This document shows, in pieces, positions 29,500 to 30,967 of a stretch of DNA of 37,570 nucleotides. Source of the stretch: Oscillibacter valericigenes. Lineage in GTDB: Bacteria; Bacillota; Clostridia; Oscillospirales; Oscillospiraceae. Position numbers and translations under genes: made by a program. The DNA is taken from positions 1-37,570 of the forward strand of contig NZ_JAFBIQ010000021.1 in NCBI RefSeq assembly GCF_021531315.1, written 5' to 3'. Positions within the stretch are counted from its first letter, which is position 1. Each line of letters begins with the position of its first letter. The notes beneath the pieces were generated by a model. It ran no database searches and was not told the DNA's origin. It was given only the letters and a program-made list of their open reading frames with translations.

Positions 29500-29976
29500 T
29501 TAATCTAAAGTATGGTTTGCGGGGGAGAGCTTGCCGCCCTCGACCGTCAGTACGCAGTAGGTGGGGCGGCGGTAGTCGCCGATGCTGCCGGGGTTGACGA
29601 GCCACAGCCTGTCGTGATAGTCGATGTAGGGCTTGTGCGTGTGTCCGTAGAGCAGGGCCTGCGCGCAGCGCGCACGCGCCTCGTAGGACGCGCGCAGCAG
29701 CGAGGACTTCACGCCCAGCGTGTGCCCGTGGCAGAGCAGCATCGGGCAGCCGCCGAAAAGGACGAGCCGCTCGGGCTCCTCAAAGCGGCCGAGGTCGCAG
29801 TTGCCCGGCACCTGCTCAAGCGGAATATCGGGATAGAGCCGGTGCAGCGTCTCCGCGTCGCGCCAGCCGTCGCCGAGGTGGACGATGGCGTCGATCATGT
29901 CGGGACGCTCCCACTCCACGGCGCGGGACAGGTTGTCCGCATTGCCGTGGGAATCGGAAAAAACAAGAATTTTCAT
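29500..29976 (-). CDS. YfcE/MJ0936-family metallophosphoesterase
   Basis: This is a 158-residue calcineurin-like phosphoesterase with the complete set of dimetal motifs: FSDSHGN (Asp, His), VHLGDG (Asp), PGNCD (Asn), LLCHGHT (His) and YGHTHKP (His). YfcE-type enzymes hydrolyse phosphodiesters in vitro; the physiological substrate is unknown. The start at 29976 overlaps the stop of the upstream membrane-protein gene (ATGA), so both are one operon. Longer in-frame upstream starts fall inside that gene and were rejected because the family starts MKILVFSDSHG. Confidence 0.92.
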   Translation of the reverse strand: MKILVFSDSHGNADNLSRAVEWERPDMIDAIVHLGDGWRDAETLHRLYPDIPLEQVPGNCDLGRFEEPERLVLFGGCPMLLCHGHTLGVKSSLLRASYEARARCAQALLYGHTHKPYIDYHDRLWLVNPGSIGDYRRPTYCVLTVEGGKLSPANHTLD

Positions 29977-30464
29977 AGCAGCGCAGTTACTCCGTAGGTG
30001 AGAAGCGAGATGATGACGCCCGCGAGGAACACGCCCGCGGTAATGGCGGGCACGGCGAGCTTGAGCCGCAGATCCAAAAGCGCCGCGATCAGCGCACCGG
30101 TCCACGCGCCCGTTCCGGGCAGCGGAACGGCGACAAAGAGCAGCAGCCCCCAGGTCTGATATTTTACCACCCTGTCGCTCTTGCGCCGCGCCTTTTGCTC
30201 AAGCCTGTCCACCCAGCGCCCGAGGCGCGGGATGTGGACGCGCACCCATGCAAAAACGCGCCGCGCGAAGAGGATGATGAACGGCACGGGCAGGAGATTG
30301 CCGAGCAGGGCCGCAAAAAACGCCTCCCGCAGCGGCAGCCCCATCGCCACGCCCGCGGGAAGGCCACCGCGCAGCTCGACCACGGGCAGCATGGAGATGA
30401 GCAGGGTGGCGAGGAATTTCCCCTCGCCCGCCGCGAGCAGCCATTGTGAGAGCGATTCCGCCAT
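29973..30464 (-). CDS. Small multidrug export family protein (COG2426)
   Basis: This is a 163-residue integral membrane protein of the Sm_multidrug_ex family (COG2426). It contains the family's E-L-R-G-G-L-P block (LPVVELRGGLPAGVAMGLPL), a second segment AALLGNLLPVPFIILFARR, the basic loop RLEQKARRKSDRVVKYQTWGL and the PLPGTGAWTGALIAALLDL motif. Four membrane segments are likely. The transport role is by family name only and is poorly supported experimentally. The start at 30464 has GAAAGGAAACGG. It is the first gene of a two-gene operon with the phosphoesterase; promoter at 30498-30526. Confidence 0.88.
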   Translation of the reverse strand: MAESLSQWLLAAGEGKFLATLLISMLPVVELRGGLPAGVAMGLPLREAFFAALLGNLLPVPFIILFARRVFAWVRVHIPRLGRWVDRLEQKARRKSDRVVKYQTWGLLLFVAVPLPGTGAWTGALIAALLDLRLKLAVPAITAGVFLAGVIISLLTYGVTALL

Positions 30465-30497: not shown

Positions 30498-30526
30498 ATT
30501 ATATAAAAAAGCGCAGGAAAATACAA
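30498..30526 (-). promoter_or_regulatory. Promoter for the COG2426-phosphoesterase operon
   Basis: On the minus strand, TTGTAT (30521-30526), 17-nt spacer, perfect TATAAT (30498-30503), 34 nt before the start codon. Confidence 0.65.
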
Positions 30527-30548: not shown

Positions 30549-30576
30549 AAAAGGGGACGGCCCGTGGGCCATCCCC
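30549..30576 (-). terminator. Intrinsic terminator after the Gln/Asn peptide gene
   Basis: On the minus strand GGGGATGGCCC and GGGCCGTCCCC form a stem of about 10-11 bp (one G-T pair), followed by TTTTGCGTTTTT. It starts 18 nt after the stop codon of the small gene. Confidence 0.75.
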
Positions 30577-30593
30577 TCCGCTTCTATGCAGGC

Positions 30594-30683
30594 TCAGCGC
30601 TGGTTGCTGTTCTGATTTTGGTTCTGGTTCTGATTGCCGTTCTGGTTCTGCTCCTTGTTCTGGTTCTGATTTTTCTCCTTCAT
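30594..30683 (-). CDS. 29-residue Gln/Asn-repeat peptide, probably sporulation-specific
   Basis: A very short gene with a textbook ribosome site (AAAGGAGG, 8 nt before ATG). The peptide is almost entirely N, Q, K and E: MKEKNQNQNKEQNQ, then GNQNQNQNQNSNQR. It has no signal or membrane segment and would be soluble and unstructured. It has its own promoter (30720-30749, matching the forespore sigma-F consensus) and terminator (30549-30576), strong evidence that this is a real transcription unit. Low-complexity Q/N-rich small proteins recall gamma-type small acid-soluble spore proteins of Bacillus, but no homology can be claimed. The repeat itself (AAC/CAG-type codons read as GTTCTG on the plus strand) could alternatively be a simple repeat. 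Confidence 0.7.
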   Translation of the reverse strand: MKEKNQNQNKEQNQNGNQNQNQNQNSNQR

Positions 30684-30719
30684 GTCTGCGCCTCCTTTCG
30701 CGTGTTCTGCTACGGCGGA

Positions 30720-30749
30720 TAGTATCTCCGTCCCCGAAAGAAAATATAC
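30720..30749 (-). promoter_or_regulatory. Sigma-F (forespore)-type promoter for the Gln/Asn peptide gene
   Basis: On the minus strand, GTATA (30745-30749), 15-nt spacer, GGAGATACTA (30720-30729). This matches the B. subtilis sigma-F consensus GYWTA-N15-GGnRAnAHTR at every defined position. It also approximates the sigma-G pattern with mismatches. The predicted start of transcription lies ~30 nt before the ATG. No sigma-A promoter is visible in this gap on this strand. Confidence 0.6.
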
Positions 30750-30772: not shown

Positions 30773-30801
30773 TTGACAAATCGCGCGCGGAGTGGTATCA
30801 T
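30773..30801 (+). promoter_or_regulatory. Sigma-A promoter of the infC-rpmI-rplT operon
   Basis: Perfect TTGACA (30773-30778), 17-nt spacer, TATCAT (30796-30801). It lies ~167 nt upstream of the infC start, leaving room for a regulatory leader. Confidence 0.82.
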
Positions 30802-30904
30802 ACCTACGCAAAACAAAGAAGAGCGGCAGCATCCGTTCTCACCTCCAGCCACAGGCGAAGGGGTCAATGATCGAAAAAGCGCGCGGGCGCTTTGCGTTTG
30901 TTGT

Positions 30905-30933
30905 ACGGGTGCGGCATGGCTGCGCTCGTTTTT
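30905..30933 (+). terminator. Intrinsic terminator in the infC leader (attenuator)
   Basis: ACGGGTGCGGC (30905-30915) pairs over 11 bp with GCTGCGCTCGT (30919-30929, three G-T wobbles), loop ATG, followed by TTTTGTTT. It lies between the promoter and the infC start codon. In B. subtilis the same operon is attenuated by binding of ribosomal protein L20 to the leader. An upstream helix (AAAGCGC/GCGCTTT near 30874-30892) may belong to the competing structure. Confidence 0.6.
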
Positions 30934-30967
30934 GTTTGGTAAAATCATTTGATGGAGGTGCTTCGGT

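Follow-up and report, generated by a model that had tools for sequence, protein, structure and literature searches.

In the window, by which we mean the whole 37,570-nucleotide stretch of DNA analysed here, the infC operon and a COG2426 gene flank a complete small transcription unit that is read from the minus strand. We read this unit as a forespore micropeptide gene whose hydrophilic, disordered product would act in the manner of a minor or gamma-type SASP, and we put the probability of this overall reading at about one half. It is highly probable that the unit is a short gene translated under its own promoter, as its conservation shows, and that it serves sporulation from a sigma-F-type promoter, as promoter class and the decay of the unit in one relative (G011) both suggest. 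The original prediction had placed a sigma-F-type promoter, a strong ribosome site, a 29-codon N/Q gene and a terminator-like hairpin at 30549-30749; direct reading bore out each element, and the interval correctly spans promoter to terminator. The features of the locus in this genome, G000, are as follows.

30720 to 30749, minus strand: forespore-type promoter GTATA-N15-GGAGATACTA (GTATA at 30749-30745, a 15-nt spacer, GGAGATACTA at 30729-30720), with an equivalent in all 15 genomes that carry the gene
30704 to 30711, minus strand: conserved leader element AGCAGAAC, a motif found in 12 of the 18 genomes of the genus, with a slightly different leader in three further carriers
30691 to 30698, minus strand: ribosome-binding site AAAGGAGG; the form GAAAGGAGG occurs in 14 carriers and GGAAGGAGG in G008
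30594 to 30683, minus strand: 29-codon gene (ATG at 30683, TGA at 30596-30594) with the product MKEKNQNQNKEQNQNGNQNQNQNQNSNQR
30550 to 30579, minus strand: intrinsic terminator-like hairpin of 13 pairs with a T-rich tail, read from the sequence
30498 to 30526, minus strand: separate sigma-A-type promoter of the downstream COG2426 gene, TTGTAT-N17-TATAAT
29973 to 30464, minus strand: gene for a COG2426 / Sm_multidrug_ex membrane protein (Pfam PF06695, E 1.3e-43), a neighbour outside the unit
30773 to 30801, plus strand: divergent sigma-A-type promoter of the neighbouring infC operon

The 29-residue peptide, of about 3.5 kDa, is 69% N+Q, and the N/Q-run pattern CARAAYMARAAYMARAAY is unique to this locus in the 2.48-Mb G000 genome, with two overlapping matches against none for the reversed control. 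No Rfam family reached its gathering score at the peptide locus, and a search at a lax threshold returned sub-threshold matches only, none over the peptide ORF on its strand. On the plus strand, the leader of the infC-rpmI-rplT operon (30810-30943) gave a full-length, sub-threshold match to the Rfam L20_leader family (23.3 bits vs 58.7, E 0.027), and the hairpin-rich start of this leader is kept in relatives that have infC at the peptide locus.

Using the COG2426 protein as an anchor together with the leader motif, we sought the gene in a genus set of 18 genomes that includes G000. Homologous small ORFs, which the original prediction had suggested looking for, were present in 15 of the 18. Twelve genomes hold an N/Q-rich version (25-42 residues, N+Q 50-87%), and three hold changed versions: 40 residues with 38% N+Q in G015, eight residues with 75% in G016, and 23 residues with 17% in G008. 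The locus is present in G011 and the peptide gene absent from it, while neither the COG2426 anchor nor the leader motif was found in the incomplete assemblies G003 (68% complete) and G017 (64% complete). Promoter, leader and ribosome site can be aligned across all 15 carriers, and the distance from the -10 element to the start is 35-37 nt in every one of them. The start codon is ATG in 14 carriers and GTG in G006; the peptide begins with MK in 14 and with MN in G016, and the last residue is K or R in 13 of the 15. The interior has little fixed residue order, judging by an alignment of 13 of the 15 peptides from which the most altered, those of G008 and G016, were left out; length drifts and composition is mostly kept. 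The original prediction would have been undermined by a start, ribosome site and promoter left unconserved behind a drifting repeat. We found the opposite, with all three conserved, although the repeat itself does vary in length and order.

Tandem Repeats Finder detects 6- and 18-base periodicity across the ORF, and this periodicity, along with the free drift of N/Q order, would fit a DNA repeat, arisen by chance or selfish, that only looks like an ORF. We give this explanation almost no credence, however, because 15 genomes preserve the start, ribosome site, promoter, spacing and codon choice, and because relatives with the same upstream region arrange N and Q differently. The frame that encodes N and Q is the one opened by the conserved start in each carrier except G008, where N/Q is low. 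Furthermore, codon choice in the 15 peptides is like that of neighbouring genes, which argues against a freely drifting repeat: CAG and CAA are used 99:1 for Gln, compared with 52:2 in nine genes of the window, and AAC and AAT 141:36 for Asn, compared with 54:8. At the level of sequence, this pattern of codons and conservation is that of a translated gene selected for composition and not of a free repeat, and the N/Q peptide ORF is confirmed as a real, conserved gene.

Its distribution appears narrow. The leader motif was found in seven of 400 sampled genomes of the family, all seven among the nine members of this genus in the sample, and in none of the 391 from outside it. Of 80 named COG2426 loci, only two were found to have a small N/Q-rich ORF preceded by a ribosome site (L045 and L046, which appear to correspond to G016 and G007); in the other 78 no such ORF was found within stretches of up to about 3.5 kb, some of which are shorter upstream (e.g. 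L102). A profile search of 300 family genomes matched only two, both from this genus; because it missed known carriers in the sample (G004, G012, G006 and G016), its silence elsewhere carries little weight. The peptide gene has so far been seen in one genus; unrelated N/Q peptides at other loci of other genera could have escaped the profile search, which was too insensitive. Within the genus, the leader motif AGCAGAAC followed by GAAAGGAGG marks the gene and provides a simple finder for it. Our literature search found no paper whose listing describes such a peptide.

The anatomy of the locus, in which a hairpin and then a gene (COG2426 in 14 of 15 carriers) come after a short ORF dominated by two amino acids, resembles that of an amino-acid attenuator. 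Accordingly, ribosomes stalling at Asn or Gln codons of a leader peptide might govern read-through of the terminator into COG2426. The hairpin does begin within 25 nt of the peptide stop codon in all 15 carriers, with a clear T-run after it only in some. Yet unlike attenuator leaders, the peptide gene has its own sporulation-type promoter, and the downstream gene has its own promoter too: a sigma-A-type element resembling TTGNNN-N17-TATAAT precedes COG2426 at 14 of 15 loci checked, namely 13 of 14 carriers and G011, with none found in G014 and with G015 outside the set. The two genes also occur apart. In G015 (85% complete) COG2426 was not found, and the peptide gene is kept with yfcE next to it; conversely, G011 keeps COG2426 and its promoter without the peptide. 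Moreover, N and Q are almost gone from the G008 version, and PF06695 is not known to be linked to Asn or Gln. Comparison of these loci mostly excludes the leader-peptide explanation, which we regard as very improbable.

The unit is similarly separable from its other neighbour. In a signature search over 1-1.5 kb upstream, infC was seen beside the peptide gene in nine of the 15 carriers, and the remaining six show no infC signature in about 1-1.3 kb. Interference between the divergent promoters of the peptide gene and infC was considered and set aside, since infC was seen next to the gene in only those nine. The promoter of COG2426, the arrangement in G015 and the infC counts together argue against both COG2426 attenuation and infC interference. 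At seven loci (L003, L007, L011, L012, L013, L015 and L016), the hairpin that follows the peptide gene contains the -35 box of the COG2426 promoter (TTGTGC or TTGTAC), so that the terminator and the next promoter overlap.

To place the peptide promoter among forespore promoters, we scored all promoter sets with one neutral forespore seed. All 15 carrier genomes have a promoter that scores at least 10 of 11 within 100 nt upstream of the peptide gene, whereas only 219 of 7500 mononucleotide shuffles made from these stretches do. The sigG gene is a sigma-F target in Bacillus, and alpha/beta SASP genes are classic sigma-G targets. A at position 7 of the -10 element occurs in 15/15 peptide, 4/4 sigG-gene and 11/13 gpr promoters and in 2/13 SASP promoters, and T at position 2 of the -35 element in 12/15, 4/4, 10/13 and 1/13, respectively; these yardsticks are thin, as the sigG-gene set comes from three genomes with one gene fetched twice, and the gpr set comprises the 13 of 16 stretches above the score cut. 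Two more sigG-gene stretches (G006 and G010) share the form GTATG-N14-GGAAAGAATA, and one gpr copy (L161, in G003) has a -10 element identical to that of the peptide gene, GGAGATACTA. By these letter counts, the peptide promoter groups within the genus with the sigma-F-like set. It appears to resemble sigG and gpr promoters (sigma-F type) more than alpha/beta SASP promoters (sigma-G type), a class assigned by comparison. In C. difficile, the sigma-F and sigma-G consensus elements are very similar, and they are told apart by positions other than those that separate our sets, according to the available part of PMC3789822. The G000 genome shows no enrichment of the strict sigma-F pattern GTATR-N14-16-GGNRANAMTA, which has two matches compared with four for the reversed control, so the promoter match is convincing only by its place and conservation and not as a genome-wide motif. 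The SASP genes of the genus have a conserved leader of their own: GCGATACCCAA lies directly 3' of the promoter at 13 of 13 loci (L129-L140 and L144), another gene-specific forespore leader like AGCAGAAC of the peptide gene.

Most of the genus carries sporulation genes. Matches of SigF/SigG grade (about E 1e-69 or better) occur in 17 of the 18 genomes, SpoIVA in 16, GPR in 15 and a SASP in 14. G000 has SpoIVA, GPR and a SASP (a PF00269 gene away from the peptide locus), and it encodes SigF behind SpoIIAA- and SpoIIAB-like genes; the SpoIIAB-like match is above its cut-off, SigF has TIGR02885 as its best match but falls below the cut-off, and SigG is above one cut-off. SpoIIR is either absent from the genus or too diverged for TIGR02837, which matched in none of the 18 genomes despite the 17 with SigF/SigG-grade matches, and so it is unusable as a second sigma-F yardstick. 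In G004 (100% complete) and G009, SigF/SigG-grade matches and SpoIVA are accompanied by no alpha/beta SASP detectable by PF00269.

The only genome of the 18 in which SigF/SigG, SASP, SpoIVA and GPR were all missing is G011 (locus L014), a draft that is 89% complete and whose best sigma match is RpoD. By its gene content, G011 seems to have lost sporulation altogether. The flanks of its peptide locus, namely the leader of infC and the promoter of COG2426 (TTGTGC-N17-TATAAT), are intact. What lay between them has decayed: forespore promoter, ribosome site and ORF have all disappeared, and a degraded hairpin is left. In the COG2426 tree, G011 falls among the carriers beside G008 (91/72, not strong), with no fork on the path to G011 starred, and given this placement the peptide module was most likely lost. 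N/Q is already low in G008, so the decay may predate the loss in G011. The joint loss of sporulation markers and peptide module is one event in one draft genome and not a statistic. From promoter and distribution, the peptide is most likely part of the forespore programme.

The sequences of the different versions point to a product that would be short, disordered and very polar, with composition mattering more than order. Its likeliest role would be that of an abundant forespore product resembling the minor or gamma-type SASPs: a hydrophilic filler, a reserve of amide nitrogen and amino acids for outgrowth, or both. We hold this role tentatively. Extreme composition, a strong ribosome site and tolerance of sequence change all fit it. 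The eight-residue version in G016 and the N/Q-poor versions in G008 and G015 are contrary to it, unless those lineages gave the role up; all three genomes retain SigF/SigG-grade matches and a SASP. The original prediction of a small forespore protein for storage or filling is favoured in its first part by the conserved gene, the sigma-F-type promoter and the decay in G011, where no sporulation marker was found, while storage pure and simple sits poorly with eight residues in G016 and with N/Q contents of 17% in G008 and 38% in G015.

The closest model for such a role is found in Bacillus. The gamma-type SASP SspE is Gln/Asn-rich and disordered, and much longer than this peptide. Like our candidate it is made in the forespore, and it is hypothesised to be an amino acid reserve (PMC8452069, from the part available). 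The peptide differs in having a sigma-F-type rather than a sigma-G-type promoter, and homology is not indicated, as the four of 15 members searched (G000, G009, G014 and G015) had no match in Pfam or NCBIfam at E up to 10; nor did these four match the alpha/beta SASP domain PF00269. It also differs in occurring in a clostridial lineage: the available portions of PMC3533761 and PMC8452069 report that clostridia lack SASPs of the gamma type, in agreement with the original prediction. The minor SASPs of Bacillus (SspH to SspP and Tlp) are likewise small, lineage-limited forespore proteins, although, as far as the accessible text of PMC3533761 goes, they are mostly limited to bacilli. It is possible but doubtful that this clostridial lineage independently evolved a counterpart to the gamma-type SASPs, a near-pure Asn/Gln peptide that the forespore makes early on to fill the core or to store amide nitrogen and that is selected for composition rather than sequence. 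The minor SASPs themselves have different sequences that are not almost pure N/Q.

Alternatively, the peptide could form a gel or aggregate in the spore, as a low-complexity protein might. N/Q-rich runs favour such behaviour, and a parallel exists in GerG of Clostridioides difficile, a precedent for a species-specific, Asn-rich spore protein: it is about 30% Asn, has repeats that vary in number and gels in vitro, as the part of PMC5241399 available to us describes. GerG differs, by the same description, in having repeats of the GMPNNMSNNMNSNM type, which contain much Met and Pro, and in governing Csp incorporation (PMC5241399), and its repeats are dispensable for function. Since the N/Q-rich peptides of this genus are also just 25-42 residues long and contain charged residues, we consider gel formation quite unlikely.

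The main rival to a SASP-like role is a regulatory one, in which a forespore peptide would bind a sigma factor, a protease or a membrane protein, or the RNA itself would act, with the N/Q run as a loosely constrained spacer. Small forespore regulators exist, the leader and the initial MK are better conserved than the rest, and the eight-residue and low-N/Q forms persist with promoter and ribosome site. However, no conserved motif extends past MK and composition, most N/Q-rich versions have little predicted RNA structure in the ORF (folded without a shuffle control), and no Rfam family was found at gathering score. We regard a regulatory peptide or RNA as unlikely on this balance.

A forespore micropeptide with a role like that of the minor or gamma-type SASPs would bear on a broader question in spore biology, because little is known of the proteins that serve clostridial spores for storage or filling. 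If our reading is true, it would suggest that micropeptides which evolve fast and are confined to one lineage can take on such tasks.
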